A stretch of DNA of 64,000 nt from Mesostigma viride (Eukaryota; Streptophyta; Mesostigmatophyceae; Mesostigmatales; Mesostigmataceae), in the NCBI GenBank assembly GCA_009746045.1, contig RPFO01000072.1, positions 3,359,237-3,423,236 on the forward strand, written 5' to 3'. The notes below the pieces were generated by a model. It did not search any database. It was not told the origin of the DNA and saw nothing but the letters and a program-made list of their open reading frames with translations. A program made the position numbers and the translations under genes. Shown here in pieces: positions 2,601 through 64,000 of the stretch; position 1 is the first letter of the stretch, and the number at the start of each line of letters is the position of its first letter.

Positions 2601-2621
2601 GACAACAACGCTGCTTGCGCT

Positions 2622-4152: not shown

Positions 4153-4159
4153 TGAGCGA

Positions 4160-33893: not shown

Positions 33894-34664
33894 GGGCGGC
33901 ACGTTGGCTGCCGAGCTTCCCATCCTCTCCTCCACCACCACCGCCACCTCCAAGCTCCTCGCCTCCACCTCCACCACAACCGACGCCCTCACGGCCCAGC
34001 TTCTCGCCATCGACAAGCGCCTGCAGGACAACGCCATAGCCATCGAATGCTTGCAGAACACCGCCGGCATCACTGCTCAGGCGGTGAAGGACATCGCCGC
34101 TCGGCCAGCCCCTGCTGGCCCTGCCGGCGATGCTCCTCCGGCCCATCCCGACCTGGGCGGACATGCTTAAGCAACACGCCACCTCCACCACCTCCGCCGT
34201 CGCCGCGCAGACGCTGGACCTCCGCGAGGAGGCCGAGCTCGCCAAGCGCAGCCTTAACGTCATAGTCAAGCACTTCGACCCGCTGCAGGACGAGACCTCC
34301 GAGACCCTTGCCCTGGCGTTTGAGAACAAAATCCTTGTCCCCATGGCTATCACTGGTAAGGTCAAGCCGCGGGGGGTGACCCGCCTTCCCCGCTCGCGGG
34401 GTAAGGCCGGCCCCTCCCCCTTGCTCCTCACCTTTGACACCATGGCGGATAAGATGGAGTTCCTCAAGTGTCGCAAGCGGCTTGGGGGGACCGCCTACAC
34501 GCTCGGGACGACGACTTGACCTTGACGCAGCAACAACGGCGACGGGAGTTATGGCCGACCTACCTCCAGCTTCGGCAGACGGCGGGACAGAAGCCGGTCT
34601 ACTGGAAGGGGGCGGACATCTACGTCGCCCACAAGCCCTGGCAGGCGACCCCTGCAACCCCAGC
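33894..34664 (+). pseudogene. ORF1 protein gene, frameshifted twice and interrupted
   Basis: The first frame to about 34,140 is Ser/Thr/Ala-rich (LTAQLLAIDKRLQDNAIAIE, a coiled-coil-like stretch, then ITAQAVKDIAA). A shift near 34,140 leads to HATSTTSAVAAQTLDLREEA and LLLTFDTMADKMEFLKCRKR. A second shift near 34,505 leads to DDDLTLTQQQRRRELWP and AHKPWQATP. The reading is then cut by the array at 34,665 and resumes at 38,937. The order of parts equals the copies at 28,777 and 32,488. Confidence 0.75.
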
Positions 34665-36226
34665 TGTCACGTCCGTGATCATTTACGTCCGTGCACTCAA
34701 GAAGTTACGCGATTGCCGTAATCGGAATCGTTATGTCCGACGTTTGGTTGGTTCCGATTCAGTATAGGCCGCAGGCTTTGTTCCTTGGGCCGGTGTAGAG
34801 CGCCGCGCCGGAAAGGCCTGAATTTCTAGAGTGACAGTCTTAGGTGACCTGACTTAGGTTCGGGCACAAGACTTTGGGGCGCAAAGCCTTGGTGGCTTGC
34901 GCAATATTCCGGTGCGTGACATTTGGCAGTTACGAATCTTTTGTATTGTCCAGACGGAATGAATCATGTTCAGTCCATCGGACAAAGCTAGATACGCAGA
35001 TCGTAGTGTGCGGTGTGCTGGCTCGCACGTGGCTGTCGAATAGACTTGCTCTGCATTTTGCTGGCAGTCTAACTGCACGTCAGGCGGCTTGCTGGCAAAT
35101 GCGACAGCGCATGGATGCCGGGATTTTTGGAGGTATTTAGGAGCACAGCAGCGGCCATGGTGGTCGTTGTTCGCTCGTTACTCTCCCTCACAACTTGGTG
35201 TTGTCGTCAAGGGGTTTAATAGTGGAACAATCCGGAGCAGCCCCCGAGAGTGGTTGCAATGAGTAATTGTCATGAGATTGGTTGACGGAAGTGATAACTG
35301 TTTGGTTTCGTCAAGATGATGTGTGTATTGTGGGCGAGACTCGGGAAGGAACCCGGTCGTCGTTGGCCAGTGAGCCATAGCTGGGGTAAGCGGGATAGGT
35401 AGACAGGATAGGGGGCGCTAAAGGACACTGCCAGCCGTAAGCCAAGCGGAGCAGTGTGGCGTCACCCGAGGCCTGCTAGGTTATCAAGAACCGCTTAGCC
35501 TTATTTGGACAGTGACGCACAAGTACGACATTATACGACTAGACAACACTTGTATTCTTGTCGATGTCTTTTGAAATTAAATGTGAATGGTTTGGTTGCT
35601 TTCCAAATATATAAAGCATCATGGTTTTATTCTACACCTGGCTGGCTACGGAATTGCCTGTCATGAGGTCGGCGGCCAAGTATGTCCGTGACCTGCATCT
35701 CACACTGGATTTTAACGAGCGAACAACCCATGATGGGTTCACTGAGTCCGGCCAGCCTGGGGTTCCTCCTGCTTCACCCAGGGAAGCACAAGGAAGAGGT
35801 TATTGCTTAGCCTTCAAAAGCATCTGAAGAGGTTAGGCTTTTCCCTGAAAAAGCCATTGAAGAGGTTATTGCTTAGCCTTCAAAAGCATCTGAAGAGGTT
35901 AGGCTTTTCCCTGTAAAAAGCCATTGAAGGGGTTATTGCTAAGCCTTTAAAAGCATGCGTGTTATAAAGGTTGTTGCTGATCCTGGAAAAGCATCTTTGA
36001 GCAGCTGGATTTTTTTTTTCCTTTTTGCTGCTGCCTGGAATGACGCCCTCTTTGGGCTTCCTTCTTTTGTGTGAGATGCCTTTCTTTCACTTTTTGCTCT
36101 CACGTTGTTGTGAGCTAAAGAGTGGGGGGGGAGGTGGCATATCACACACATGATTACAGCTGATAGTGGATGCATTCAAGTAGCGGTAATGATCAGTCCA
36201 GGATATAATGGCACGCAAACGCGACA
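34665..36226 (+). repeat. LTR-like unit 1
   Basis: Full 1,562-bp unit, TG...CA ends. A short frame at 35,621-35,827 just after the TATATAAAG box has no recognisable domain. Confidence 0.85.
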
Positions 36227-36228
36227 GC

Positions 36229-37790
36229 TGTCACGTCCGTGATCATTTACGTCCGTGCACTCAAGAAGTTACGCGATTGCCGTAATCGGAATCGTTATGT
36301 CCGACGTTTGGTTGGTTCCGATTCAGTATAGGCCGCAGGCTTTGTTCCTTGGGCCGGTGTAGAGCGCCGCGCCGGAAAGGCCTGAATTTCTAGAGTGACA
36401 GTCTTAGGTGACCTGACTTAGGTTCGGGCACAAGACTTTGGGGCGCAAAGCCTTGGTGGCTTGCGCAATATTCCGGTGCGTGACATTTGGCAGTTACGAA
36501 TCTTTTGTATTGTCCAGACGGAATGAATCATGTTCAGTCCATCGGACAAAGCTAGATACGCAGATCGTAGTGTGCGGTGTGCTGGCTCGCACGTGGCTGT
36601 CGAATAGACTTGCTCTGCATTTTGCTGGCAGTCTAACTGCACGTCAGGCGGCTTGCTGGCAAATGCGACAGCGCATGGATGCCGGGATTTTTGGAGGTAT
36701 TTAGGAGCACAGCAGCGGCCATGGTGGTCGTTGTTCGCTCGTTACTCTCCCTCACAACTTGGTGTTGTCGTCAAGGGGTTTAATAGTGGAACAATCCGGA
36801 GCAGCCCCCGAGAGTGGTTGCAATGAGTAATTGTCATGAGATTGGTTGACGGAAGTGATAACTGTTTGGTTTCGTCAAGATGATGTGTGTATTGTGGGCG
36901 AGACTCGGGAAGGAACCCGGTCGTCGTTGGCCAGTGAGCCATAGCTGGGGTAAGCGGGATAGGTAGACAGGATAGGGGGCGCTAAAGGACACTGCCAGCC
37001 GTAAGCCAAGCGGAGCAGTGTGGCGTCACCCGAGGCCTGCTAGGTTATCAAGAACCGCTTAGCCTTATTTGGACAGTGACGCACAAGTACGACATTATAC
37101 GACTAGACAACACTTGTATTCTTGTCGATGTCTTTTGAAATTAAATGTGAATGGTTTGGTTGCTTTCCAAATATATAAAGCATCATGGTTTTATTCTACA
37201 CCTGGCTGGCTACGGAATTGCCTGTCATGAGGTCGGCGGCCAAGTATGTCCGTGACCTGCATCTCACACTGGATTTTAACGAGCGAACAACCCATGATGG
37301 GTTCACTGAGTCCGGCCAGCCTGGGGTTCCTCCTGCTTCACCCAGGGAAGCACAAGGAAGAGGTTATTGCTTAGCCTTCAAAAGCATCTGAAGAGGTTAG
37401 GCTTTTCCCTGAAAAAGCCATTGAAGAGGTTATTGCTTAGCCTTCAAAAGCATCTGAAGAGGTTAGGCTTTTCCCTGTAAAAAGCCATTGAAGGGGTTAT
37501 TGCTAAGCCTTTAAAAGCATGCGTGTTATAAAGGTTGTTGCTGATCCTGGAAAAGCATCTTTGAGCAGCTGGATTTTTTTTTTCCTTTTTGCTGCTGCCT
37601 GGAATGACGCCCTCTTTGGGCTTCCTTCTTTTGTGTGAGATGCCTTTCTTTCACTTTTTGCTCTCACGTTGTTGTGAGCTAAAGAGTGGGGGGGGAGGTG
37701 GCATATCACACACATGATTACAGCTGATAGTGGATGCATTCAAGTAGCGGTAATGATCAGTCCAGGATATAATGGCACGCAAACGCGACA
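36229..37790 (+). repeat. LTR-like unit 2
   Basis: Full 1,562-bp unit, apparently identical to unit 1 at period 1,564 (1,562 plus GC). Confidence 0.9.
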
Positions 37791-37792
37791 GC

Positions 37793-38932
37793 TGTCACGT
37801 CCGTGATCATTTACGTCCGTGCACTCAAGAAGTTACGCGATTGCCGTAATCGGAATCGTTATGTCCGACGTTTGGTTGGTTCCGATTCAGTATAGGCCGC
37901 AGGCTTTGTTCCTTGGGCCGGTGTAGAGCGCCGCGCCGGAAAGGCCTGAATTTCTAGAGTGACAGTCTTAGGTGACCTGACTTAGGTTCGGGCACAAGAC
38001 TTTGGGGCGCAAAGCCTTGGTGGCTTGCGCAATATTCCGGTGCGTGACATTTGGCAGTTACGAATCTTTTGTATTGTCCAGACGGAATGATGTTCAGTCC
38101 ATCGGACAAAGCTAGATACGCAGATCGTAGTGTGCGGTGTGCTGGCTCGCACGTGGCTGTCGAATAGACTTGCTCTGCATTTTGCTGGCAGTCTAACTGC
38201 ACGTCAGGCGGCTTGCTGGCAAATGCGACAGCGCATGGATGCCGGGATTTTTGGAGGTATTTAGGAGCACAGCAGCGGCCATGGTGGTCGTTGTTCGCTC
38301 GTTACTCTCCCTCACAACTTGGTGTTGTCGTCAAGGGGTTTAATAGTGGAACAATCCGGAGCAGCCCCCGAGAGTGGTTGCAATGAGTAATTGTCATGAG
38401 ATTGGTTGACGGAAGTGATAACTGTTTGGTTTCGTCAAGATGATGTGTGTATTGTGGGCGAGACTCGGGAAGGAACCCGGTCGTCGTTGGCCAGTGAGCC
38501 ATAGCTGGGGTAAGCGGGATAGGTAGACAGGATAGGGGGCGCTAAAGGACACTGCCAGCCGTAAGCCAAGCGGAGCAGTGTGGCGTCACCCGAGGCCTGC
38601 TAGGTTATCAAGAACCGCTTAGCCTTATTTGGACAGTGACGCACGAGTACGACATTATACGACTAGACAACACTTGTATTCTTGTCGATGTCTTTTGAAA
38701 TTAAATGTGAATGGTTTGGTTGCTTTCCAAATATATAAAGCATCATGGTTTTATTCTACACCTGGCTGGCTACGGAATTGCCTGTCATGAGGTCGGCGGC
38801 CAAGTATGTCCGTGACCTGCATCTCACACTGGATTTTAGGTGGCATATCACACACATGATTACAGCTGATAGTGGATGCATTCAAGTAGCGGTAATGATC
38901 AGTCCAGGATATAATGGCACGCAAACGCGACA
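37793..38932 (+). repeat. LTR-like unit 3, internally deleted
   Basis: 1,140 bp. The deletion joins GGATTTTA (38,838) directly to GGTGGCATATC. Also a 4-bp deletion near 38,090 and one substitution (GCACGAG for GCACAAG) near 38,645. Confidence 0.9.
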
Positions 38933-49189: not shown

Positions 49190-49572
49190 TGATTAATTAA
49201 CTAACTACTTAATTCATTTATTAAACTCATGCCCCCATTAGGGAGTCAAGGAGCATTAGCTAACCCCGATTAATTAATTAATTAATTAATTAATTAAACA
49301 CGTGCTCCTGTTGGGGAGTCACGGAGCACCGAAGTGCTTTTAATCCCTGTGTGTGCACAACAGGAGAAAGGGCAGAGACCCCCAGTCTCCTTCATGCCTA
49401 AGGCATGCCACAGCTGCATTCGGGAACGCTAGCTAAACGGACACGCCAACGATCCGGCAATCTGTGGGTGCAATAAGACCCATGTGAGCATGGCATAACA
49501 CTAGGAGCGTGGGCAAGTAATCTCATCAAAGCCAGGACGTAGCATGGCTGTACTAGGACTATACCCCGATCA
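49190..49572 (-). repeat. Two stacked LINE-type 3' ends
   Basis: A first TTAA-rich tail and degraded stem-loop (49,192-49,262, GGGAGTCAAGGAGCA) is followed by a second (AATT)n tail (49,268-49,299), a stem-loop (GTGCTCC...GGAGCAC, 49,302-49,329) and about 240 bp of the 3' UTR family of 27,300-27,600. The UTR ends where the GATG microsatellite begins; in copy A the same UTR carries a short GATGGATGG. Confidence 0.8.
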
Positions 49573-49863
49573 ATGGATGGATGGATGGATGGATGGATGG
49601 ATGGATGGATGGATGGATGGATGGATGGATGGATGGATGGATGGATGGATGGATGGATGGATGGATGGATGGATGGATGGATGGATGGATGGATGGATGG
49701 ATGGATGGATGGATGGATGGATGGATGGATGGATGGATGGATGGATGGATGGATGGATGGATGGATGGATGGATGGATGGATGGATGGATGGATGGATGG
49801 ATGGATGGATGGATGGATGGATGGATGGATGGATGGATGGATGGATGGATGGATGGATGGATG
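49573..49863. repeat. (ATGG)n microsatellite
   Basis: About 72 uninterrupted ATGG units. It forms the exact left border of the big inverted repeat and would be a natural slip or mis-join point. Confidence 0.98.
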
Positions 49864-50060
49864 CTACAAAAACCTAAAGTGACCCCCTTTTGGAGGGCTG
49901 ACAGACATGCACAGGACTTGGACAAATGACATGGCATTCCTCGTGGTAAAGCATGGAAATAAACACATGTAATGATATTTATTAATGAAACAATTCTTTA
50001 TTCCAGATTATATTGCATCATTACATTGCATTGGTCACACGTAAACCTTGTCAGTACTAT

Positions 50061-51206
50061 TTACTGGTCCTCATCATCAGAGGATCCCTCCTTTTGATTT
50101 CCCTCATCAGGGATGAAGGGCATGTCCTTGGTTCCTCTCCCCTGAGTCTTTCTGGCCTGCTCAGCAGCAGCAGCCTGATCAATGGCAGCCTGCTCAAAAG
50201 CAGCCTGCTTGGCAGCCAGCTTGGCTGCCTGCTTGGCAGCTTGCTTGGCAGCGCGCCTGGCAGCTCTATCAGGATCAAGTTGCTCGTCAGGAACAGGCTG
50301 CTGCCCCCCCAGAAGCGGCTGGTCAATAAAAACAGGTTGCTGCACGTAAAATGACCCCTGCTGGGGAGCAGGCTGCTGCAAAAAAACAGATGCCTGCTGG
50401 GGAGCTGGCTGGAATACTGGCTGGGGAGCTGGCTGGAATACTGGCTGGGGAGCTGGCTGGGCAACAGGTACATACACAGCAGCCTGTCTTGCGATGAGGT
50501 CAGCCAGCTGCTTTTGCACTGCTGCCTTCTCTTCTTCTGACTTCTTGAGCCGCTCTGCAATCTCATCTGAATCCATCTTGGTCTTGGGAGGCGTTTCGTT
50601 GTGCGAAGGTTCGTCGTTGCTCTGATAGCTCTGCTCTTGTTCGTCTTGTTCCACCGTCTGTGGGCGGCTCTCACGTCGAAGCCGCTTTGTTTGCGGCTCG
50701 TGTGCTGCATTGCGCTCTGCCTGGATTTCATTCCAGCGCCGCCTAACATCGGTGTGGTCGGCCCTGTTTCCAGCCTTGCACTTCGCCTTGGTGCTGACAA
50801 AATCCTGCACAAACGAGGCTACTGCTGCGTCGCAGTTGCTTGCAAGCATGTCGATAGGCTCCCAGCTGAATTTCTGTATTTTCTGACCTTTGACGGCGCA
50901 TTCCATAAGGTGTTCTTTCGTAAAATCCCACTCAATCAGGAGCAAGAGATTGTCGCCTTCGAACTTTGCATCTGAAATAGAAGCTATCTCCCATTCATCA
51001 CGCTCCTTGTGAGGAAGCCCATAGCCAGATGGGCCGACATCGGTCTGCATCATGGCACGCTTTTCCTCCCTGACCTTGACACGCTTACTTTTCGTGTCTG
51101 CATATTCTTCTTGATGAAAAGTGGACTCCATCTTGTGGAGCCGCCGCCCCACATGGGTAAAAAGGGACGTGAGCGGTATTTTCTTTAAAATAGTTTCATG
51201 ATCCAT
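50061..51206 (-). CDS. Chromodomain-like protein, left-arm copy (381 aa)
   Basis: Mirror of 62,240-63,385. The start is the ATG at 51,206 (MDHETILKK). Residues about 71-137 fit a chromo-like fold: EWEIASI, then LLLLIEWD, then FSWEPIDMLASNC and a closing helix, with an insertion between strands 2 and 3. C-terminal to it lie a basic segment (KRLRRESR), four PQPVFQPA-type repeats (about 250-285), a run of AAKQ repeats (about 325-345) and an acidic end (SSDDEDQ). A chromodomain reads methylated histone tails; that role is inferred here from pattern only. It is the last gene before the GATG microsatellite. AATAAA lies downstream at about 50,007 on this strand. Confidence 0.65.
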   Translation of the reverse strand: MDHETILKKIPLTSLFTHVGRRLHKMESTFHQEEYADTKSKRVKVREEKRAMMQTDVGPSGYGLPHKERDEWEIASISDAKFEGDNLLLLIEWDFTKEHLMECAVKGQKIQKFSWEPIDMLASNCDAAVASFVQDFVSTKAKCKAGNRADHTDVRRRWNEIQAERNAAHEPQTKRLRRESRPQTVEQDEQEQSYQSNDEPSHNETPPKTKMDSDEIAERLKKSEEEKAAVQKQLADLIARQAAVYVPVAQPAPQPVFQPAPQPVFQPAPQQASVFLQQPAPQQGSFYVQQPVFIDQPLLGGQQPVPDEQLDPDRAARRAAKQAAKQAAKLAAKQAAFEQAAIDQAAAAEQARKTQGRGTKDMPFIPDEGNQKEGSSDDEDQ

Positions 51207-51764
51207 GGCTGCCTGCCACAAATTCCTCCTTGTATGCTCGACAGGCCTTTGCTTTTATTTATTGTTAAAAGCCTTCATGGCGGCGACTGGCCAGTGGGTC
51301 GACCGCAAGGGCCGACTGGCCAGGGCGAATCTATTTATACAAGTCCGTGGCTTGCCAGTAACTACAATTATGAATTGTGAGCGCCACTCCGTTGGTACTT
51401 TGTCAGTAATTAAAATTGCACAAGTCCCGAGCACCGTGTCATACGCCCTTACTTCTGTCGTACGCAGTACCGGCGCGGCGTTAGGCGTGTTTCTGTGCAA
51501 AGTCCCGAATTTTCACCAAGTCCTGGGCACTAAGGGGGCCGTGCTAGTAAGTGTAGCTCCTAAACGGCTAAGTCTTTTTGAATTCTGTCACTTGCACCCT
51601 GTTTGGTATGCTCAGTATATGCTACGTACCTATTGCATTTGTTAATTGGCCTATTTATAATGCATGAGATGTGAGGACTCTTTGTTTACGTAATTGCTTT
51701 TATTAGAAAATAAAATACAGTAATCATTTCAACACTCCTTTTCTCAATGTAGGAGTGGAAGTAC

Positions 51765-52483
51765 TTATTTGTACATCGCATGCGCCTTCCTCCGTTCATG
51801 GCTTGGCTTCAAAAGGCTGCACTCCCTGCAGCTGACATAGCCATTGGCCAGTTGGTTCTTCCACACGTCTAACTCCCAATTGCACAGTTCCTCCATCTTC
51901 TGCATCCGGGGGGGCGGTGGTGAGGAGCCACGCTTGTCTCGAGGGCCTTGCGCACCGCCTCCTTCATGCGATTGATGAGCTCGAGACCGTGCTCTTCTGC
52001 CGTGCGTTCCTTCTCGAGATCCGGCACGGACTTGATGTACTCGTGAGCGACAAGGTCAGCGTCGTGTCCGAAGACGATGACAGCCCAGAACATCTTGTCA
52101 AACACATTCTGGGCAAGGCACGCCAGATGCTTCCTGTAGCAGTGAGCCTCGGCGACCCACCTCTTCGCTTGACGGAGAAAGATATAGGGCTTCTTGCCAA
52201 TCAGCAACCGCTTGCACATCTTGAGATCGCATGAAGTCATGTGGCGCAGCTCGCCAGGGTTCCTTCGGCGTCTGCGGGAGCGCATCTGAATCTCCTTCTC
52301 AATGGCATTCAGCAGCTCAGTGGCTTCGATCGTCTTTTCCTCTTTCACCTTCTCAAACTGGACCTGCGTGGCCTTGTTGATTCCACACAGTTTGGGCCAC
52401 GAGAGCTCCACGAGGCGGTGCACGATTTCTGCAGGCAGGCTGTCGAAGGTGGCAGCCATAGCTGGTTTCGCGGAGTCAGCCAT
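51765..52483 (-). CDS. F-box-like protein with -1 shift, left-arm copy
   Basis: Mirror of 60,964-61,682, same length and same break. ATG at 52,483 opens MADSAKPAMAATFDSLPAEI. The frame ends at 51,869 unless a -1 shift occurs at the G7 run (C7 on the coding strand) at 51,908-51,914. The shifted frame continues with MEELCNWELDVWK, then SCRECSLLKPSHERR, to a stop at 51,765. The N-terminal LPAEIVHRLVELSWPKL pattern resembles an F-box. See the right-arm entry for details. Confidence 0.6.
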
Positions 52484-52966
52484 AGCTGTTTTCGTGGTAG
52501 TGGTGGATGGAGAGGAGGATAGCTGCGAGAGTTGTTGCGTCTCGCGACTTAATAGACGAAGGGATATCCACAGCTGCCACGGGATTGGTCCGCGTCCTGT
52601 GGATAAGCGCGGCGCGAGCGCGACGCGCGCGTCCTGTGGATAAGCGCGGCGCAAATACGGAACGGCGCGGCGCGAGTACGGACCGGTGCACGTCCACGGG
52701 ATTCTGCCACGTGGCACGTGCCATTCCCCGTGGTGACGGCGCCAGAAGTATAAATATAAAACCGCGCCAAATTCAAATTTTTGCCAAGTCTCAACGGCTA
52801 AGTATTATTAAATTTGGACACTTGGGACGTGTGCAATTGTTAATTTTACTTTGATTGCAAGCATGGAAAATAAGACATGATGTTCGTGTGAATTGTTTTC
52901 ATTAAAAATATAATTACTCTTTAATTGTACACAAGTCCACGGGACTAGAGAGATTCTCTGAACTAT

Positions 52967-54231
52967 TTACAGGGCACGCGGGGCGGCCAGTTGGTTCATG
53001 ACAGCTGCATAGCAGGACTCTGCGGAGTCGTAGCGGAAAAACGGGAAGCACAGGTCGTGCTTGGAGTCCTTGCCCTCGCAGATGGGGCAGGAGACACTCT
53101 TGGTGCCAGCCTCCCGCAGAGTGTCGAGGACGCACTCGCTGCAGACGACGTCGTTGTCGATGCTGTGGCCGTTGGCGGTGAAGAGGTAGTGCGCCTTCTT
53201 GTTGCACACCTTGCAGGTCTTGGAGGGCACGTCCAACTGGTGGTTGCAGCCCATCTGCTTGCTGGCAGCCTTGACGCCGCAGAACTTGTTCTTCAGATGC
53301 TCGAACTCCTTGGTGCCGGGAGTGACGGTGCTGGTGAGGTTGGACTCGGACAGCGTGAAAGAGACGAAGCTGAGGTGGGAGACATAGTTGCGCTTCTCGC
53401 ACTCCCACTTGATCCTGGAGATCTCCTTGGTGAAGTCGCTCTTGAAGTTCTCGATGTCGACCTTGGGCTTCTTGATGGCGTCGTTGAACAGCCCGCAAGA
53501 CCTCAGGTAGTCGTTTGTGTCCTCCTGCTTCCTCTTGTAGCCACCGCGAAGAAAGGGCTGGTCGCGCTCCTCGACCTTGACGTTGACCTTGCCAGGGTCG
53601 GTGGGGCCGGTGAGAGCAAAGTTCGGCTCAGAGACGGTGTAGGTGCCTGGCGTGGGCCACTTGATGAACTCGGCGGTGTCCTCCATATCCGGGTAGATCT
53701 GGAGCAGCTCGGGGAACCTCTTCTTCGTCCGCTCGTGCTCGAACGCGAACTGCTCGAATGCGGGGTCCCAGCAGCTGATGCAGTGCTCGGCCTTGCCGTT
53801 GCAGTCGATCTTGAGGAGATCCACACGAGTCGGCTTCTTGCACTTGGCGCAGTCCTTCGTGGGGATGCTCTTCAGCATGTTGTTCTGCTGAAGGTACTCG
53901 CACGAGTCGCAGAAATGGCCGTCGCAGGGGAAAAGCTGTGATTGTTGCGCATCTTGTAATCCTCGTCAAACTCGCAGAAGTGCTTGAGAGACCTCATCTT
54001 GTCGCAGCCGACGCAGCGAATGCGCTTCTTGTTCATCATGATGTTGCTCGTCTCGTAGTGATCCATCATGTCGTTCAAAACGCTGCGAGAAGCCTCAGGA
54101 AGGTGGACTTCGCATGCATGCTCGCCGGTGACTGGGTGGAAAAGAATGTTGAAGTGGCGAGTTTTCTTGACTTTGGGAGCACTGTGCGGCCCACGCTGGC
54201 GAGGAGCAGAGATGGCGGAGGAGGTAGCCAT
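52967..54231 (-). CDS. Cys-rich/RING-like protein with -1 shift, left-arm copy
   Basis: Mirror of 59,216-60,480. ATG at 54,231 (MATSSAISAPRQRGPHSAPK). A -1 shift is needed at GGGGAAAA (53,927-53,934) to enter the 303-codon frame ending at 52,967. Cys pairs before and after the shift (CVGC, then FCDSC, CAKC, CISC) make one zinc-binding region only when both frames are joined, which supports a single gene. The same break occurs in the right arm. Confidence 0.7.
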
Positions 54232-54319
54232 TGGAGCTGGTTGGTTTTGGTTGCTGAGAGAGCTGGGTGGATGCGAGTGGGATGCGAGGCGAGGTGGTGC
54301 AAGTCCTGCATTTATACCC

Positions 54320-54960
54320 ACGGGGCTGCAATTCCCGTGGTCTAGAAGAATTCAGCAGATCGACGGCTCGTGGCTCGCCACGAGGTTTGTAACGGGAAAC
54401 GGTATGACGGTTACGAGGAAAATTTCCCGTGGCCATACATTTTGAGCGTTATTTTGCCACGGGATTTGTAACGTAAAAAATCTTTCCCCGTGGCAAAAAT
54501 ATCCGACAGTTACTTTGCCGCGGGACCGGAATCGGATTTTTTTCTGTCCCCGTGGACGGATATTTTCGAGCGTTATTTTGCCACGGGATTTGTAACGTAA
54601 AAATTCTTTCCCGTGGCAAAAATATCCGACAGTTACTTTGCCACGGGGCCGAATCGGTTTTTTTTCTGTCCCCGTGGACGGATATTTTCGAGCGTTATTT
54701 TGCCACGGGATTTGTAACGTAAAAATTCTTTCCCCGTGGCAAAATATCCGACAGTTACTCTGCCACGGGGCTCAAAACCGAAAATCCTTAATCCCCGTGG
54801 ACGGATATTTCTGACCGTTATGCTGCCACGGGATTTGTAACGTAAAAAAACGCGTCCCGTGGATAAGGTTTCGGCGCATAAACGACGAACGCGCTTCCAC
54901 GTAGCCAGATTGCCCGTGCAAGACCACGTAGATAGCCTGGCAGCCACGGGACCGTCTCGT
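54320..54960. promoter_or_regulatory. Divergent promoter with repeated CCACGGG boxes, left arm
   Basis: Lies between the two zinc-finger genes. About eighteen CCACGGG/CCCGTGG boxes in alternating orientation sit in ~122-bp units with ACGTTAC, AACGCTCGAAAATATCCG-like and AACTGTCGGATATTTTG words. TATA boxes face outwards at both ends (TATAAAG at 54,980 for the right-hand gene, TATAAA on the minus strand near 54,316). Confidence 0.75.
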
Positions 54961-55059
54961 CAACCAAGGCCTGCGCAGGTATAAAGACCAGACTTCCTCG
55001 TCTCCTCGCCACTCGCTCACCTCACATCAGCTCAGCACACCAAAACTCTCTCACTGGAT

Positions 55060-56244
55060 ATGGCTTCCCGCCCCAGATACGCAGCTAGCTACAACTTTGG
55101 CCGTGGTGTTACTGGAGCTAGTGGCAGTGGCAGTGGAAGTGGCAGGGGAAAGCGACGTGCTGCGAGGAACACGGCTACTGGAGAAGCAGGTTTGTGACGA
55201 GCCTTTGTTTTTTTGCACCCAAAAGCGCTTTTTCTTGTCGTTTCCGCCTTTTGGTACTCATTTCTTGTTATGTTTTCTTGCCCCCACACACCCGTGCATG
55301 CAGAACTGACCGCTGAACAACGGCAGCTTCACAGGGCTAACAAGCCTGTGCCCGTGCACGATAATCACGGGGACTTCGACACAAGAAACAACGTGTTTCC
55401 CTATCTGGAGAACACTTTCAAGGTGGCGAAGCTCGTCCTGGACTTGAGCAAGATCGAATGCGCCATTTGCGCGGAGGAGAGAGACAAGTATGTCACTCTC
55501 ATGCTGGAGAACGAGCCCGCGCACGCATGCTCCATCATCATCTGCGACACCTGTGCCACTACCAAGCTTCACACGTTCAGAAACCAGTGCCCGCAGTGCC
55601 GCAAGCCGCTGAGCTCGTCTGGGCAGCTGTTCGTCCCCAACCCGCAGCTCAACAGCCTGGCGTCGAGGACGCAGTACAGGGCCTGCGAACACCCCGGCTG
55701 CTTTACGATCATCCCAAGCAACATGATGGCGGCGCACGAGGAGGAGTGCGAGTACAACGTCTACACCTGTGGCAACACCGTCTCGTTCCGCCTGCTGGAC
55801 AACGAGACGCTTTCTTCCAAGATGTGCTGCGGCTATGAGGGCAAGAAACGCGCCGTCGAGGAGCACATGGAGACTTGCCCGGAGGCTGAGTCTGCGAAGA
55901 AGCTTAGCGCAATGATGGGCGTGTTTGACAAGGTGGAGGCGCTCTCAGCTGCAATGGAGCGCGACAGCCCAGACGTCTTCAAGCGCATGGCTCAGTTGTT
56001 TGGGGTGACCACGGAGAAGGCCAGGCGCATCCTTGCCAGCCTGCCTGGAGCGAGTGCTGCCGGCCCTTCTTCCCAGCGTGCTCCTCGTCCAGGGGAAGCA
56101 GTGGACACAGCAATCCCCGTCGACGCCCCCACTGACCCAATCAGTGATCTCGTGGACGCCATAGACGCTGACGTTGCTGCACAGGGCGTCGACGACGAGG
56201 CTGCAGACCCCACCTGGACTCCGGCTGGCAACCAGGACGACTGA
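55060..56244 (+). CDS. RING/TRAF-like zinc-finger protein, left-arm copy (356 aa, one intron)
   Basis: Exons 55,060-55,189 and 55,304-56,244, with a 114-bp intron (GTTTGT...GCATGCAG). Exon 1 encodes a Gly/Ser-rich start with a basic patch (GRGKRRAARN) that could be a nuclear signal. Exon 2 has a RING-like set: CAIC, CDTC and CPQCRK at about residues 93-145. A SIAH/TRAF-type segment follows (CEHPGCFTIIPSNMMAAHEE, then CCGYEGKKRAVEEHMETC), and the tail is acidic with Pro/Asp. RING proteins of this layout are E3 ubiquitin ligases; activity is inferred. TATA at 54,980, about 75 bp before the ATG; AATAAA at about 56,401. Confidence 0.8.
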
Positions 56245-56539
56245 ACAGTTACAGCTGACAGCATTGGATGTCAAAAACCCCTCTAGTTTAGAGACAAGGG
56301 CCATAGTTAGAAACCAGCCCATCCACGGGGTTTAGGTGACAGGCAGTAGAAGAAACACCCCACACACTGGGGACTTGGACAGGAAAGATGTGGATGTTTG
56401 TAATAAAGATGTGGATGTTTGCAAAACCAGTTTGAAAAAATATCTAAGCTGCACATTAGTATAAGTATGGTAAGTTTCCAGCAGGCCACGTGGCAGCCAC
56501 AAAGCCCGATCCCCGTGGTAGCCGGCGCAGTACGGATCC

Positions 56540-56910
56540 CGTAGGAATCCACGAGATATTTCGAGATATTTCCGAGATATTTTAGATATTTTCAGATATT
56601 TTGAAAATATCCCAGGGACCCCGTGGACTCCCAGGGGAATCGTAACCGAAAATCGGACTCGCGGCCGGCGATCGGAGGAGCCACCACGGGAAAACCCGTT
56701 TTTTTTTCGGGTGTGTCCTCAGAACGTTCTGAGGACACACCCGAAAAAAAAACGGGTTTTCCCGTGGTGGCTCCTCCGATCGCCGGCCGCGAGTCCGATT
56801 TTCGGTTACGATTCCCCTGGGAGTCCACGGGGTCCCTGGGATATTTTCAAAATATCTGAAAATATCTAAAATATCTCGGAAATATCTCGAAATATCTCGT
56901 GGATTCCTAC
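56540..56910. repeat. Centre of the palindrome with GATATTT clusters
   Basis: On each side of the centre (56,725/56,726) lie a CCGAAAAAAAAACGGG-type homopolymer block and a cluster of GATATTT/AAATATC words (56,550-56,610 and 56,840-56,900). The inner 300 bases are a perfect palindrome without a loop. Confidence 0.9.
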
Positions 56911-57204
56911 GGGATCCGTACTGCGCGGCTACCACGGGGTCGGGCTTTGTGGCTGCCACGTGGCCTGCTGGAAACTTACCATACTTATACTAATGTGCAG
57001 CTTAGATATTTTTTCAAACTGGTTTTGCAAACATCCACATCTTTATTACAAACATCCACATCTTTCCTGTCCAAGTCCCCAGTGTGTGGGGTGTTTCTTC
57101 TACTGCCTGTCACCTAAACCCCGTGGATGGGCTGGTTTCTAACTATGGCCCTTGTCTCTAAACTAGAGGGGTTTTTGACATCCAATGCTGTCAGCTGTAA
57201 CTGT

Positions 57205-58389
57205 TCAGTCGTCCTGGTTGCCAGCCGGAGTCCAGGTGGGGTCTGCAGCCTCGTCGTCGACGCCCTGTGCAGCAACGTCAGCGTCTATGGCGTCCACGAG
57301 ATCACTGATTGGGTCAGTGGGGGCGTCGACGGGGATTGCTGTGTCCACTGCTTCCCCTGGACGAGGAGCACGCTGGGAAGAAGGGCCGGCAGCACTCGCT
57401 CCAGGCAGGCTGGCAAGGATGCGCCTGGCCTTCTCCGTGGTCACCCCAAACAACTGAGCCATGCGCTTGAAGACGTCTGGGCTGTCGCGCTCCATTGCAG
57501 CTGAGAGCGCCTCCACCTTGTCAAACACGCCCATCATTGCGCTAAGCTTCTTCGCAGACTCAGCCTCCGGGCAAGTCTCCATGTGCTCCTCGACGGCGCG
57601 TTTCTTGCCCTCATAGCCGCAGCACATCTTGGAAGAAAGCGTCTCGTTGTCCAGCAGGCGGAACGAGACGGTGTTGCCACAGGTGTAGACGTTGTACTCG
57701 CACTCCTCCTCGTGCGCCGCCATCATGTTGCTTGGGATGATCGTAAAGCAGCCGGGGTGTTCGCAGGCCCTGTACTGCGTCCTCGACGCCAGGCTGTTGA
57801 GCTGCGGGTTGGGGACGAACAGCTGCCCAGACGAGCTCAGCGGCTTGCGGCACTGCGGGCACTGGTTTCTGAACGTGTGAAGCTTGGTAGTGGCACAGGT
57901 GTCGCAGATGATGATGGAGCATGCGTGCGCGGGCTCGTTCTCCAGCATGAGAGTGACATACTTGTCTCTCTCCTCCGCGCAAATGGCGCATTCGATCTTG
58001 CTCAAGTCCAGGACGAGCTTCGCCACCTTGAAAGTGTTCTCCAGATAGGGAAACACGTTGTTTCTTGTGTCGAAGTCCCCGTGATTATCGTGCACGGGCA
58101 CAGGCTTGTTAGCCCTGTGAAGCTGCCGTTGTTCAGCGGTCAGTTCTGCATGCACGGGTGTGTGGGGGCAAGAAAACATAACAAGAAATGAGTACCAAAA
58201 GGCGGAAACGACAAGAAAAAGCGCTTTTGGGTGCAAAAAAACAAAGGCTCGTCACAAACCTGCTTCTCCAGTAGCCGTGTTCCTCGCAGCACGTCGCTTT
58301 CCCCTGCCACTTCCACTGCCACTGCCACTAGCTCCAGTAACACCACGGCCAAAGTTGTAGCTAGCTGCGTATCTGGGGCGGGAAGCCAT
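57205..58389 (-). CDS. RING/TRAF-like zinc-finger protein, right-arm copy (356 aa, one intron)
   Basis: Exons (minus strand) 58,389-58,260 and 58,145-57,205 with a 114-bp GT-AG intron. Its translation is the same as the left-arm copy. Cys/His ligands in order: CAIC (about 93-96), CDTC and CPQC form a RING-like cross-brace. The later CEHPGC, HEEECEYNVYTC and HMETC fit SIAH/TRAF zinc fingers, which usually mediate substrate binding or oligomerisation. The C-terminal ~120 residues are Ala/Asp-rich and probably disordered. TATAAAG lies at 58,469-58,463 and AATAAA near 57,050, both on the minus strand. Transcribed divergently from the Cys-rich gene at 59,216. Confidence 0.8.
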
Positions 58390-58494
58390 ATCCAGTGAGA
58401 GAGTTTTGGTGTGCTGAGCTGATGTGAGGTGAGCGAGTGGCGAGGAGACGAGGAAGTCTGGTCTTTATACCTGCGCAGGCCTTGGTTGACGAGA

Positions 58495-59130
58495 CGGTCC
58501 CGTGGCTGCCAGGCTATCTACGTGGTCTTGCACGGGCAATCTGGCTACGTGGAAGCGCGTTCGTCGTTTATGCGCCGAAACCTTATCCACGGGACGCGTT
58601 TTTTTACGTTACAATCCCGTGGCAGCATAACGGTCAGAAATATCCGTCCACGGGGATTAAGGATTTTCGGTTTTGAGCCCCGTGGCAGAGTAACTGTCGG
58701 ATATTTTGCCACGGGGAAAGAATTTTTACGTTACAAATCCCGTGGCAAAATAACGCTCGAAAATATCCGTCCACGGGGACAGAAAAAAAACCGATTCGGC
58801 CCCGTGGCAAAGTAACTGTCGGATATTTTTGCCACGGGAAAGATTTTTACGTTACAAATCCCGTGGCAAAATAACGCTCGAAAATATCCGTCCACGGGGA
58901 CAGAAAAAAATCCGATTCCGGTCCCGCGGCAAAGTAACTGTCGGATATTTTTGCCACGGGGAAAGATTTTTTACGTTACAAATCCCGTGGCAAAATAACG
59001 CTCAAAATGTATGGCCACGGGAAATTTTCCTCGTAACCGTCATACCGTTTCCCGTTACAAACCTCGTGGCGAGCCACGAGCCGTCGATCTGCTGAATTCT
59101 TCTAGACCACGGGAATTGCAGCCCCGTGGG
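58495..59130. promoter_or_regulatory. Divergent promoter with repeated CCACGGG boxes, right arm
   Basis: Mirror of 54,320-54,960. Boxes alternate in orientation every 25-35 bp; the unit starting CCACGGGGACAG repeats at 58,771 and 58,893 (122 bp). The last boxes flank the TATA of the Cys-rich gene (CCCCGTGGGTATAAATG, 59,122-59,138). Alternating inverted sites suggest a dimeric DNA-binding regulator or a methylation-sensitive factor. What binds is unknown. Confidence 0.75.
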
Positions 59131-59137
59131 TATAAAT
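59131..59137 (+). promoter_or_regulatory. TATA box of the Cys-rich/RING-like gene
   Basis: TATAAAT directly after a CCCGTGGG box, 80 bp before the ATG at 59,216. Confidence 0.7.
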
Positions 59138-59215
59138 GCAGGACTTGCACCACCTCGCCTCGCATCCCACTCGCATCCACCCAGCTCTCTCAGCAACCAA
59201 AACCAACCAGCTCCA

Positions 59216-60480
59216 ATGGCTACCTCCTCCGCCATCTCTGCTCCTCGCCAGCGTGGGCCGCACAGTGCTCCCAAAGTCAAGAAAACTCGCCACTTCAACA
59301 TTCTTTTCCACCCAGTCACCGGCGAGCATGCATGCGAAGTCCACCTTCCTGAGGCTTCTCGCAGCGTTTTGAACGACATGATGGATCACTACGAGACGAG
59401 CAACATCATGATGAACAAGAAGCGCATTCGCTGCGTCGGCTGCGACAAGATGAGGTCTCTCAAGCACTTCTGCGAGTTTGACGAGGATTACAAGATGCGC
59501 AACAATCACAGCTTTTCCCCTGCGACGGCCATTTCTGCGACTCGTGCGAGTACCTTCAGCAGAACAACATGCTGAAGAGCATCCCCACGAAGGACTGCGC
59601 CAAGTGCAAGAAGCCGACTCGTGTGGATCTCCTCAAGATCGACTGCAACGGCAAGGCCGAGCACTGCATCAGCTGCTGGGACCCCGCATTCGAGCAGTTC
59701 GCGTTCGAGCACGAGCGGACGAAGAAGAGGTTCCCCGAGCTGCTCCAGATCTACCCGGATATGGAGGACACCGCCGAGTTCATCAAGTGGCCCACGCCAG
59801 GCACCTACACCGTCTCTGAGCCGAACTTTGCTCTCACCGGCCCCACCGACCCTGGCAAGGTCAACGTCAAGGTCGAGGAGCGCGACCAGCCCTTTCTTCG
59901 CGGTGGCTACAAGAGGAAGCAGGAGGACACAAACGACTACCTGAGGTCTTGCGGGCTGTTCAACGACGCCATCAAGAAGCCCAAGGTCGACATCGAGAAC
60001 TTCAAGAGCGACTTCACCAAGGAGATCTCCAGGATCAAGTGGGAGTGCGAGAAGCGCAACTATGTCTCCCACCTCAGCTTCGTCTCTTTCACGCTGTCCG
60101 AGTCCAACCTCACCAGCACCGTCACTCCCGGCACCAAGGAGTTCGAGCATCTGAAGAACAAGTTCTGCGGCGTCAAGGCTGCCAGCAAGCAGATGGGCTG
60201 CAACCACCAGTTGGACGTGCCCTCCAAGACCTGCAAGGTGTGCAACAAGAAGGCGCACTACCTCTTCACCGCCAACGGCCACAGCATCGACAACGACGTC
60301 GTCTGCAGCGAGTGCGTCCTCGACACTCTGCGGGAGGCTGGCACCAAGAGTGTCTCCTGCCCCATCTGCGAGGGCAAGGACTCCAAGCACGACCTGTGCT
60401 TCCCGTTTTTCCGCTACGACTCCGCAGAGTCCTGCTATGCAGCTGTCATGAACCAACTGGCCGCCCCGCGTGCCCTGTAA
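59216..60480 (+). CDS. Cys-rich/RING-like protein with -1 shift, right-arm copy (421 aa if joined)
   Basis: ATG 59,216 opens a frame to 59,575. The 303-codon frame ending at 60,480 overlaps it in the -1 phase. The switch falls at TTTTCCCC (59,513-59,520). Joined, the product has an N-terminal zinc-binding region (CVGC about residue 73, then FCDSC, CAKC, CISCW), a long charged middle with a Lys-rich segment (about 165-230), and a C-terminal RING-like set (CNHQL, CKVC, H, CSEC, CPIC, about 325-395). Paired RING-like ends suggest an E3 ligase or a scaffold; inferred only. The frameshift could be a one-base loss, programmed -1 slippage or a read error, but both arms share it. Neighbours: divergent RING gene upstream, F-box-like gene 483 bp downstream. 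Confidence 0.7.
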
Positions 60481-60963
60481 ATAGTTCAGAGAATCTCTCT
60501 AGTCCCGTGGACTTGTGTACAATTAAAGAGTAATTATATTTTTAATGAAAACAATTCACACGAACATCATGTCTTATTTTCCATGCTTGCAATCAAAGTA
60601 AAATTAACAATTGCACACGTCCCAAGTGTCCAAATTTAATAATACTTAGCCGTTGAGACTTGGCAAAAATTTGAATTTGGCGCGGTTTTATATTTATACT
60701 TCTGGCGCCGTCACCACGGGGAATGGCACGTGCCACGTGGCAGAATCCCGTGGACGTGCACCGGTCCGTACTCGCGCCGCGCCGTTCCGTATTTGCGCCG
60801 CGCTTATCCACAGGACGCGCGCGTCGCGCTCGCGCCGCGCTTATCCACAGGACGCGGACCAATCCCGTGGCAGCTGTGGATATCCCTTCGTCTATTAAGT
60901 CGCGAGACGCAACAACTCTCGCAGCTATCCTCCTCTCCATCCACCACTACCACGAAAACAGCT
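60481..60963 (+). promoter_or_regulatory. Spacer and promoter of the F-box-like gene
   Basis: Contains AATTAAAG after the Cys-rich gene, CTTAGCCGTTGAGACTTGGC (60,645-60,664), a TATATTTATA stretch at 60,689-60,698, CCACGGGG and CCCGTGG boxes (60,713-60,868), two tandem CGCGCCGCGCTTATCCACAG units (60,793-60,852), and GTCTATTAAG at 60,889 that could be the nearer TATA element. Confidence 0.55.
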
Positions 60964-61682
60964 ATGGCTGACTCCGCGAAACCAGCTATGGCTGCCACCT
61001 TCGACAGCCTGCCTGCAGAAATCGTGCACCGCCTCGTGGAGCTCTCGTGGCCCAAACTGTGTGGAATCAACAAGGCCACGCAGGTCCAGTTTGAGAAGGT
61101 GAAAGAGGAAAAGACGATCGAAGCCACTGAGCTGCTGAATGCCATTGAGAAGGAGATTCAGATGCGCTCCCGCAGACGCCGAAGGAACCCTGGCGAGCTG
61201 CGCCACATGACTTCATGCGATCTCAAGATGTGCAAGCGGTTGCTGATTGGCAAGAAGCCCTATATCTTTCTCCGTCAAGCGAAGAGGTGGGTCGCCGAGG
61301 CTCACTGCTACAGGAAGCATCTGGCGTGCCTTGCCCAGAATGTGTTTGACAAGATGTTCTGGGCTGTCATCGTCTTCGGACACGACGCTGACCTTGTCGC
61401 TCACGAGTACATCAAGTCCGTGCCGGATCTCGAGAAGGAACGCACGGCAGAAGAGCACGGTCTCGAGCTCATCAATCGCATGAAGGAGGCGGTGCGCAAG
61501 GCCCTCGAGACAAGCGTGGCTCCTCACCACCGCCCCCCCGGATGCAGAAGATGGAGGAACTGTGCAATTGGGAGTTAGACGTGTGGAAGAACCAACTGGC
61601 CAATGGCTATGTCAGCTGCAGGGAGTGCAGCCTTTTGAAGCCAAGCCATGAACGGAGGAAGGCGCATGCGATGTACAAATAA
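60964..61682 (+). CDS. F-box-like protein with -1 shift, right-arm copy (204 aa, or 239 aa with shift)
   Basis: ATG 60,964. The unshifted frame ends at 61,578 (204 aa). A -1 shift at C7 (61,532-61,538; reading CGC CCC CCC GG, a classical slippery geometry) would enter a frame coding MQKMEELCNWELDVWK, then SCRECSLLKPSHERRKAHA, to TAA at 61,682. Residues 13-45 (FDSLPAEIVHRLVELSWPKL) resemble an F-box, the SKP1-binding motif of SCF ubiquitin ligases. The middle is basic and helical (MRSRRRRRN; KRLLIGKKPYIFLRQAKRW). The C-terminal CREC pair resembles Cys pairs of the neighbouring protein. AATAAAAG follows at about 61,743. The F-box assignment is weak; alternatives are a DNA-binding helical protein. 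Confidence 0.6.
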
Positions 61683-62239
61683 GTACTTCCACTCCTACAT
61701 TGAGAAAAGGAGTGTTGAAATGATTACTGTATTTTATTTTCTAATAAAAGCGTTTACGTAAACAAAGAGTCCTCACATCTCATGCATTATAAATAGGCCA
61801 ATTAACAAATGCAATAGGTACGTAGCATATACTGAGCATACAAAACAGGGTGCAAGTGACAGAATTCAAAAAGACTTAGCCGTTTAGGAGCTACACTTAC
61901 TAGCACGGCCCCCTTAGTGCCCAGGACTTGGTGAAAATTCGGGACTTTGCACAGAAACACGCCTAACGCCGCGCCGGTACTGCGTACGACAGAAGTAAGG
62001 GCGTATGACACGGTGCTCGGGACTTGTGCAATTTAATTACTGACAAAGTACCAACGGAGTGGCGCTCACAATTCATAATTGTAGTTACTGGCAAGCCACG
62101 GACTTGTATAAATAGATTCGCCCTGGCCAGTCGGCCCTTGCGGTCGACCCACTGGCCAGTCGCCGCCATGAAGGCTTTTAACAATAAATAAAAGCAAAGG
62201 CCTGTCGAGCATACAAGGAGGAATTTGTGGCAGGCAGCC
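61683..62239 (+). promoter_or_regulatory. Spacer and promoter of the chromodomain-like gene
   Basis: TATAAATA at 62,107-62,114, followed by a ~125-base leader. Upstream are words recurring at other promoters of the element: GACTTAGCCGTTTAG (61,873), GACTTGGTGAAAATTCGGGA (61,925) and GCCACGGACTTG (62,095). No further gene is seen. Confidence 0.55.
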
Positions 62240-63385
62240 ATGGATCATGAAACTATTTTAAAGAAAATACCGCTCACGTCCCTTTTTACCCATGTGGGGC
62301 GGCGGCTCCACAAGATGGAGTCCACTTTTCACCAAGAAGAATATGCAGACACGAAAAGTAAGCGTGTCAAGGTCAGGGAGGAAAAGCGTGCCATGATGCA
62401 GACCGATGTCGGCCCATCTGGCTATGGGCTTCCTCACAAGGAGCGTGATGAATGGGAGATAGCTTCTATTTCAGATGCAAAGTTCGAAGGCGACAATCTC
62501 TTGCTCCTGATTGAGTGGGATTTTACGAAAGAACACCTTATGGAATGCGCCGTCAAAGGTCAGAAAATACAGAAATTCAGCTGGGAGCCTATCGACATGC
62601 TTGCAAGCAACTGCGACGCAGCAGTAGCCTCGTTTGTGCAGGATTTTGTCAGCACCAAGGCGAAGTGCAAGGCTGGAAACAGGGCCGACCACACCGATGT
62701 TAGGCGGCGCTGGAATGAAATCCAGGCAGAGCGCAATGCAGCACACGAGCCGCAAACAAAGCGGCTTCGACGTGAGAGCCGCCCACAGACGGTGGAACAA
62801 GACGAACAAGAGCAGAGCTATCAGAGCAACGACGAACCTTCGCACAACGAAACGCCTCCCAAGACCAAGATGGATTCAGATGAGATTGCAGAGCGGCTCA
62901 AGAAGTCAGAAGAAGAGAAGGCAGCAGTGCAAAAGCAGCTGGCTGACCTCATCGCAAGACAGGCTGCTGTGTATGTACCTGTTGCCCAGCCAGCTCCCCA
63001 GCCAGTATTCCAGCCAGCTCCCCAGCCAGTATTCCAGCCAGCTCCCCAGCAGGCATCTGTTTTTTTGCAGCAGCCTGCTCCCCAGCAGGGGTCATTTTAC
63101 GTGCAGCAACCTGTTTTTATTGACCAGCCGCTTCTGGGGGGGCAGCAGCCTGTTCCTGACGAGCAACTTGATCCTGATAGAGCTGCCAGGCGCGCTGCCA
63201 AGCAAGCTGCCAAGCAGGCAGCCAAGCTGGCTGCCAAGCAGGCTGCTTTTGAGCAGGCTGCCATTGATCAGGCTGCTGCTGCTGAGCAGGCCAGAAAGAC
63301 TCAGGGGAGAGGAACCAAGGACATGCCCTTCATCCCTGATGAGGGAAATCAAAAGGAGGGATCCTCTGATGATGAGGACCAGTAA
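62240..63385 (+). CDS. Chromodomain-like protein, right-arm copy (381 aa)
   Basis: ATG 62,240 was chosen because upstream in-frame codons lack an ATG and the TATA box is about 130 bp away. Chromo-like region at about 71-137 (EWEIASISDAKFEGDNLLLL, WEP, then a helix with SNCDAAVASFVQDF). Basic stretches (TKSKRVKVREEKR; KRLRRESR) may bind nucleic acid. The C-terminal half is low complexity: Q/P repeats, then Arg/Ala/Lys/Gln repeats at about 315-350, and an acidic tail. It ends 196 bp before the end of the inverted repeat; AATAAAG at about 63,442. It could instead be a virion or scaffold-type protein; the repeats make homology hard to judge. Confidence 0.65.
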   Translation: MDHETILKKIPLTSLFTHVGRRLHKMESTFHQEEYADTKSKRVKVREEKRAMMQTDVGPSGYGLPHKERDEWEIASISDAKFEGDNLLLLIEWDFTKEHLMECAVKGQKIQKFSWEPIDMLASNCDAAVASFVQDFVSTKAKCKAGNRADHTDVRRRWNEIQAERNAAHEPQTKRLRRESRPQTVEQDEQEQSYQSNDEPSHNETPPKTKMDSDEIAERLKKSEEEKAAVQKQLADLIARQAAVYVPVAQPAPQPVFQPAPQPVFQPAPQQASVFLQQPAPQQGSFYVQQPVFIDQPLLGGQQPVPDEQLDPDRAARRAAKQAAKQAAKLAAKQAAFEQAAIDQAAAAEQARKTQGRGTKDMPFIPDEGNQKEGSSDDEDQ

Positions 63386-63581
63386 ATAGTACTGACAAGG
63401 TTTACGTGTGACCAATGCAATGTAATGATGCAATATAATCTGGAATAAAGAATTGTTTCATTAATAAATATCATTACATGTGTTTATTTCCATGCTTTAC
63501 CACGAGGAATGCCATGTCATTTGTCCAAGTCCTGTGCATGTCTGTCAGCCCTCCAAAAGGGGTCACTTTAGGTTTTTGTAG

Positions 63582-64000
63582 TAAGGCACCTACCGCGGGA
63601 TTCCCGTGGCAAAACATCTTCGGGCCCTTACTACGCTCCGCGAAAGTGACCCGTTTTCCCGGGTTGCGCGACTTGTGAAAATCGGCTAAGTCCCGTGGTC
63701 TTCCAGCGGGTGGGGTTAGCGCCCCCAAGGCCCCCCGAATAGGACCATGGCCGGAATAAATACGGGCGTGAACAATGCAAGCTTAATACGTTTAGATAAG
63801 GGGTAGGTTTCGTACGATTCGCGCGTGTGCCCCGAATACAGGTGGTCGTATGCTAAGGCTATGTTCGCGAGTATGAGATAGTACAGCAGTAGTGCTTTGA
63901 TGATGGACACAATGATCATTGTCTTTTCATTATGGACATAATTTTGTCCATCGGGGTTGCGCCTAAAAGCCGAGTAACCCGAACGGACTACGGGGGAGAA
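63582..64000. other. Unique DNA beyond the right arm
   Basis: Not repeated on the left side. It keeps the element's CCCGTGG box twice (63,605 and 63,692) and the GGCTAAGTC/GACTTGTGAAAATC words of the arm promoters, so it appears to belong to the same element, which would extend past the window. An ATGGACA/TGTCCAT hairpin lies at 63,932-63,951. Confidence 0.6.
63716..63919 (-). CDS. Small two-helix membrane protein (67 aa)
   Basis: ATG at 63,919 to TAA at 63,716. Residues 2-24 (IIVSIIKALLLYYLILANIA) and about 48-62 (IKLALFTPVFIPAMVLFGG) are hydrophobic, with a polar, Tyr/Arg-containing loop between (HTRESYETYPLSKR). The frame is clean and its composition is clearly that of a membrane protein. 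No family is recognised. Single-pass or hairpin proteins of this size are common in viruses and mobile replicons. It reads towards the inverted repeat. Confidence 0.5.
   Translation of the reverse strand: MIIVSIIKALLLYYLILANIALAYDHLYSGHTRESYETYPLSKRIKLALFTPVFIPAMVLFGGPWGR

Follow-up and report, generated by a model that had tools for sequence, protein, structure and literature searches.

Within a 64,000-nucleotide stretch of the Mesostigma viride genome (contig C113 of our searches; in the following called the window), self-BLAST delineated a single inverted pair at 49864-63581, with 99.85% identity over 13,724 aligned columns. Its two arms, 6,862 bases on the left and 6,856 bases on the right, meet without any spacer at AGAAC|GTTCT, the turning point lying between positions 56725 and 56726. 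Around this joint the sequence is a perfect palindrome for ~200 bases to each side, and the mirror symmetry breaks off at 49863/49864, where an (ATGG)n array ends, and at 63581/63582. The inverted repeat is confirmed as a real sequence feature; self-BLAST and alignment thus bore out the initial annotation of the window, which had described two ~6.86-kb arms meeting without a loop. We call the central end of each arm X and the outer end Y. From left to right, the following features were assigned:

49286..49863, plus strand: 3′ end of a LINE-like repeat on the host side, its (ATGG)n tail (49573-49863) abutting Y; labeled from the initial annotation and by eye
49864..56725: left arm, putative terminal repeat unit, with its Y end at 49864 (CTACAAAAACC...), which adjoins repeat DNA of host type, and its X end at 56725 (...CCTCAGAAC)
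50061..51206, minus strand: gene 4, left arm
51869..52483, minus strand: gene 3, left arm, an orphan
52967..54232, minus strand: gene 2, left arm, cysteine-rich, with a frameshift near 53935
54439..54848: left-arm tandem array of 123-base units bearing CCACGGG/CCCGTGG motifs, flanked by the divergently oriented genes 1 and 2
55060..56244, plus strand: gene 1, left arm, in two exons (55060-55189, 55304-56244), its protein with weak RING / Sina-type zinc finger matches
56716..56735: X·X joint, palindromic around AGAAC|GTTCT without a spacer
56726..63581: right arm, inverted copy, with its X end at 56726 and its Y end at 63581, joined to the putative viral core at Y
57205..58389, minus strand: gene 1, right arm, start placed by symmetry
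58601..59008: 123-base tandem array with CCACGGG/CCCGTGG motifs, right-arm counterpart
59216..60480, plus strand: gene 2, right arm, cysteine-rich, frameshifted near 59540 (mirror of the left-arm frameshift)
60964..61578, plus strand: gene 3, right arm, an orphan, its F-box label unsupported
62240..63385, plus strand: gene 4, right arm, with relatives P0003 and P0004
63582..64000: start of the putative viral core (TAAGGCACC...), its first 23 bases directly following a Y end in 23 of 23 exact genome copies; continues beyond the window in segments L029 and L084

The arms differ by a two-base substitution (51694-5), by single substitutions at 51114 and 51605, and by six one-base indels. The two-base substitution and a few indels had been annotated correctly, but only one of the two single substitutions had been counted. 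The substitutions are confined to the outer part of the arm (P ~0.02) and all six indels lie outside genes (P ~0.004); these weak arguments point in different directions and are superseded by the genome-wide copies described below.

The four genes of each arm are only partly as first annotated. Gene 1 contains one GT-AG intron of 114 bases, in line with the annotation. Genes 1, 2 and 4 have a TATAAA motif 80, 85 and 133 bases upstream of their ATG, respectively, and AATAAA is present 3′ of the stop codon of genes 1, 3 and 4. The motif listing contained neither TATAAA near the 5′ end of gene 3 nor AATAAA near the 3′ end of gene 2, and the view that every gene carries both signals therefore holds in part. 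Matches of the gene 1 protein to RING and Sina-type zinc finger families all remained under the Pfam cut-offs, yet are consistent with the RING part of the earlier RING/TRAF-like label; a protein search yielded nothing among 2176 candidates. Of the four, gene 1 alone has a plausible ubiquitin-type role. Gene 2 is cysteine-rich as annotated, but its RING-like label found no family over the cut-off in a profile search, and its reading frame is split in both arms. It has two relatives, both named jgi/Mesvir1: P0001, at 97% over 65% of the query length, and P0002, at 45% over 99%. For genes 3 and 4, searches with Pfam profiles and against PDB sequences assigned no family, leaving the earlier F-box-like and chromodomain-like labels without support. 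Gene 4 has two relatives, P0003 (100% over residues 1-190) and P0004 (95%), again both named jgi/Mesvir1, and the protein search found none beyond these; a single-sequence structure model of its N-terminal part had a mean pLDDT of 47 and was unusable. By the protein matches of genes 2 and 4, the host is M. viride or a species very close to it. The search in viral data that the annotation had proposed returned no relatives in the viral contigs for the four arm proteins, nor for the gene 2 alignment or the terminal 18-mer. Phage records and prokaryote genomes gave nothing useful, PHROGs only weak matches, all of unknown function, and Rfam and tRNA scans nothing useful.

We then searched the genome assembly (439.9 Mb) for further copies. 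The query 55000-56725 had at least 68 matches (40 of 85 candidates scored), and in 24 contigs an X-X joint occurs at the same base, with a spacer of 0 in 23 of them and of 8 bases in C1912. A 25th candidate, contig C2241, breaks off 115 bases past the turning point. The exact terminal 18-mer is present on both sides in 19 of the 24 dimer contigs. The arm is a unit of 6.4-6.9 kb that is sharply bounded at both X and Y, its end sequences being CTAC... and ...GAAC. The Y pattern has 61 exact matches, and no Y-Y joint was found within 20 bases. The joint is therefore head-to-head at one fixed terminus, as a hairpin-ended genome would give, and since palindromes with an identical centre occur in 24 contigs, a chance origin is excluded.

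These counts also bear on a read or assembly artefact, in which a missed SMRTbell adapter or a fold-back molecule would have produced the mirror image. According to the accessible parts of the sources, M. viride has been assembled from strain CCAC 1140 with Illumina reads (PMC7027972) and from strain NIES-296 with PacBio RSII reads and Canu (PMC6947507), and missed adapters are a known source of palindromic reads (PMC6218980). Together with the six one-base indels between the arms, this fits an artefact, and a fold-back read was our leading view early on; it was dropped once 24 contigs showed the same turning base. The flanks moreover differ beyond the two Y ends, and single copies of the arm stop at the same base. 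We regard this explanation as highly improbable. The initial annotation had named a fold-back artefact of an otherwise single-copy cassette as the finding that would speak against it; instead, the unit is multicopy and its turning base fixed.

Among 21 dimers (the window and 20 others, leaving out C730, C812 and C2191), 15 different host-side flanks were read by eye. The 24 contigs should not be equated with 24 loci, as dimers with shared flanks probably represent haplotypes. Within dimers, the arms are nearly identical: over the X-proximal 1.95 kb, 0-3 differences were counted in six dimers (C113, C730, C1413, C335, C257 and C2067), the C1912 dimer has none over 1 kb next to X, and three further dimers show 0-1 substitutions plus 4-6 gap columns over 1.5 kb. 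Because some different dimers (C1413 and C2067) are likewise identical to each other, this identity alone is weak evidence. Arm lengths are more telling. From 17 dimers measurable in both arms, four with one long arm were dropped first; in the remaining 13, some of which are probably one locus on two contigs (haplotypes), arm lengths differ on average by 12 bases within a dimer versus 138 between dimers, and none of 100,000 shuffles was as close. Each dimer hence seems to stem from one genome. The arms of C874, C1414, C1799 and C2096 differ in length by 0.7-8 kb, perhaps owing to nested insertions in one of them. Older arm copies exist too, as two sequences related to the gene 1 region have diverged to 67-82% identity (C1801:4078775-4080719 and C335:4491030-4491719).

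The length agreement also argues against a mixture, in which the assembler stitched integrated single arms to free virus ends whose reads passed around a hairpin, so that the hairpin would be real and the chromosomal dimer not. Reads over a true hairpin would indeed turn at X, and reads at a breakpoint in Ectocarpus revert likewise, as far as the accessible text describes (PMC13236599). Mixing, however, would not yield arms that match inside dimers and vary between them, and we consider it improbable.

The two Y ends of the dimer face different DNA. To the left, the (ATGG)n array extends over 291 bases; LINE-like stretches at ~1,218 and 33,274 in the window likewise lead into short ATGG runs, and host DNA as the flank of this Y end is supported. 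To the right, the first 23 bases beyond Y (TAAGG pattern) have 23 exact matches in the genome, every one of them directly beside a Y end. TAAGG lies beside exactly one Y in 17 of the 24 dimers and beside both in none; the other Y side, where read, consists of different, varied DNA. The segment 63582-64000 also holds the CCCGTGG motif of the arm, with two occurrences in 419 bases versus 0.06 expected; in either orientation, the motif occurs seven times in the first 49,863 bases of the window. On the grounds of the motif count and the adjacency of TAAGG to Y we assign this segment to the same source as the arm; a composition test on its source was uninformative. An imperfect inverted repeat spans the border between Y and core at 63560-63650 (GGGTCACTTT...GTAGTAAGG / CCTTACTAC...AAAGTGACCC).

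The following 13 kb of C113 to the right of the window (L029 and L084) are dense in long open frames, including one for a cysteine-rich protein. A profile search of L084 identified KilA-N twice (E 2.5e-19 and 4.8e-16) and PhyH (E 9.1e-7), while two other proteins matched nothing; one L029 protein matched the HMG box weakly (E 0.0037), short of the cut-off. KilA-N and PhyH are accessory genes common in Nucleocytoviricota and are supportive, not defining. L029 contains three more orphan genes (611-4979), among them the one with the HMG-box match, and CCACGGG arrays at ~30- and 28-base spacing. Since the right side of the dimer runs on into this giant-virus-like DNA, the annotation's picture of a self-contained four-gene cassette was given up.

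A whole-genome scan for the capsid protein of nucleocytoplasmic large DNA viruses (Capsid_NCLDV) gave at least 150 matches (150 of 507 candidates scored), those inspected all exceeding the cut-off, compared with none in 14 control genomes. The matches are often paired ~1.5 kb apart, an arrangement recurring in many contigs. One of them (C1535:712070-712633) is situated on the virus side of the C1535 dimer, ~58 kb away from its Y|TAAGG border. A major capsid protein gene, as expected for Nucleocytoviricota, is thus probably linked to the C1535 dimer, across 58 kb of unread sequence; this evidence comes from C1535 and not from the provirus of the window (C113). By these matches, the M. viride genome appears to be very heavily endogenised by giant viruses. 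Among the papers listed in our literature search, none dealt with giant viruses in Mesostigma; a survey of integrated viruses in protists mentions streptophyte capsid genes and, in its accessible part, does not contain the word Mesostigma (PMC10120064).

Taken together, we think it probable that the palindrome consists of two terminal repeats fused to each other, and that they form one end of an endogenous giant virus of M. viride. The locus is read as host repeat | Y-arm-X·X-arm-Y | giant-virus core, and the feature is most likely part of this virus and not a free-standing cassette; its genes would then be genes of the viral terminal repeat. The free virus would have had a linear genome (X-arm-Y|core, the second arm probably at the other end) with terminal inverted repeats of ~6.6 kb and covalently closed hairpins at X. 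Y-arm-X·X-arm-Y would arise when replication passes through the hairpin or when a genome's two ends are joined, and a break exactly at one Y would let the joined genome enter the chromosome as host | Y-arm-X·X-arm-Y | core. Single-arm copies with short mirror tracts would instead be left where a hairpin was cut away from its centre and then ligated to a broken piece of viral DNA.

Such copies exist. In the twelve single-arm copies examined, X is followed by 2 kb with long open frames, which match the C113 core directly in three of them (C1073, C2100 and C1956) and overlap each other in C1391 and C1912a. Among five of these open frames scanned, one matched Herpes_ori_bp (2.6e-17), one Laminin_G_3 (8e-14) and three nothing; for the origin-binding-like protein, no relatives were found in viral contigs. 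In all 12 copies, the DNA after X begins with a mirror image of the copy's own end, of 4, 1, 4, 5, 1, 3, 2, 5, 6, 7, 2 and 6 bases. The total of 46 bases compares with 4.0 expected and a maximum of 21 in 100,000 random draws of positions from the same flanks. In C1073, the joint has GTTCA in place of the GGCCC of the uninterrupted core, an argument for added bases. The end of C14 is a variant, and the six-base tract of this copy fits it; the 8-base spacer of the C1912 dimer (GTTCTGAC) starts as a seven-base mirror tract. Off-centre hairpin opening followed by end joining is also what leaves P nucleotides in V(D)J joining. The fixed terminus throughout the genome and the mirror-image bases at X suggest that the virus ends were once closed into hairpins, lending indirect support to the annotation's proposal of a hairpin-ended linear replicon.

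The same joints could be viewed differently, with the Y-X unit being an independent mobile element, of rolling-circle or hairpin type, that joined viral and host DNA, preferred GTTC-like targets at X and left dimers as transposition products. Two precise ends, many near-identical copies and the lack of a target-site duplication would fit, as would the X flanks, all 12 of which start with G and most with GT, and an A before Y in seven of ten single copies, although this base is mixed in dimers. Such an element does not account for the 23 of 23 exact TAAGG sites beside Y, and Pfam searches found no transposase or Rep domain in the four arm genes. A simple insertion into the core would also require the Y flank to continue the core beyond X, which it does not in C1073 and C1956; simple transposon insertion was rejected on these flanks (for C2100, the test used 80 bases of Y flank only). 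We hold an independent mobile element to be unlikely. Two specific classes were likewise rejected. Helitrons have ends of the form TC...CTRR, unlike CTAC... and ...GAAC, and a Rep-helicase was missing from the four arm genes; for a Polinton-like or integrase-type element, the apparent target-site duplications at the Y flanks, compared in 16 dimers, are too short at 0-2 bases.

Several observations weigh against an integrated virus with fused hairpin ends. Support for the closed hairpins is indirect and ambiguous, coming from assembled sequence and not from reads. The two length-matched arms observed per dimer would fit an inverted repeat at both genome ends, but the far end of a provirus was not found. 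The 16 dimers lack a target-site duplication. Seven of the 24 dimers are exceptions to the TAAGG pattern: six have one Y end unmatched exactly, and C874 has TAAGG on neither side. The Y flank of the C1535 single copy could be viral, reading so by eye. The core matched by the single copies C1073, C2100 and C1956 runs toward TAAGG, opposite in sense to the dimers, which simple end erosion does not predict. Several mirror tracts are ambiguous as well. In C2100, joint (GTTCT) and core (GCTCT) differ in a single base; C1956 is uninformative, having the same G in the joint and in the uninterrupted sequence, and so is C1912a, whose site is too diverged in C1391. The sixth base of the C14 tract is shared by C1535 and C2100, whose ends do not predict it, and in C1391 the sequence following X looks, by eye, like a direct copy of its own end as well. 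A GTTC-like target preference could resemble mirror tracts, and only C1073 clearly contradicts it.

Elsewhere in the window, exons of a Clp/HSP100-type ATPase-like gene with introns were recognized by eye from translations at ~17,700-22,300. A ~1.56-kb unit is repeated in tandem in ~2.7 copies with 99.5-99.8% identity at 34661-38838, and large direct-repeat (minisatellite) arrays occupy 4183-5162, 6608-8012 and 8872-9894.

If the fused-hairpin reading is true, the dimers and single copies are many sequence-level snapshots of hairpin viral ends arriving in a eukaryotic chromosome, which would keep a readable record of the opening and joining of viral telomeres. The alga that would hold this record is basal in the land-plant lineage, and its genome is rich in giant-virus capsid genes. 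More generally, and as a tentative proposal that we rate as possible, giant viruses of this basal streptophyte alga may have hairpin-capped genomes, enter chromosomes after end fusion and leave mirror tracts where opened hairpins are joined.

In chloroviruses and poxviruses, the linear genome carries inverted terminal repeats and is capped by hairpins. Their gene-bearing terminal repeats resemble those proposed here for the Mesostigma virus, and head-to-head joints are replication intermediates. Poxvirus hairpins contain mismatches, whereas the Mesostigma joint is perfect for ~200 bases to each side; for neither group do we know of a fused joint kept at a chromosomal border.

Among integrated viruses, the Chlamydomonas punuiviruses are comparable as giant viruses in the genome of a green alga, but have, according to the accessible text, large terminal inverted repeats together with target-site duplications, the latter not seen here (PMC13236599). 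The closest described case, by analogy, appears to be the Ectocarpus phaeovirus proviruses (EVEc). As far as the same source could be accessed, these are giant viruses integrated in an alga, with introns in some viral genes, and a palindromic joint in the provirus is read there as joined hairpin telomeres, for which a telomere resolvase and a tyrosine recombinase have been proposed (PMC13236599). The telRL-like inverted repeat of Ectocarpus is internal, whereas in Mesostigma a gene-bearing repeat pair of ~6.6 kb lies at the border to the host.

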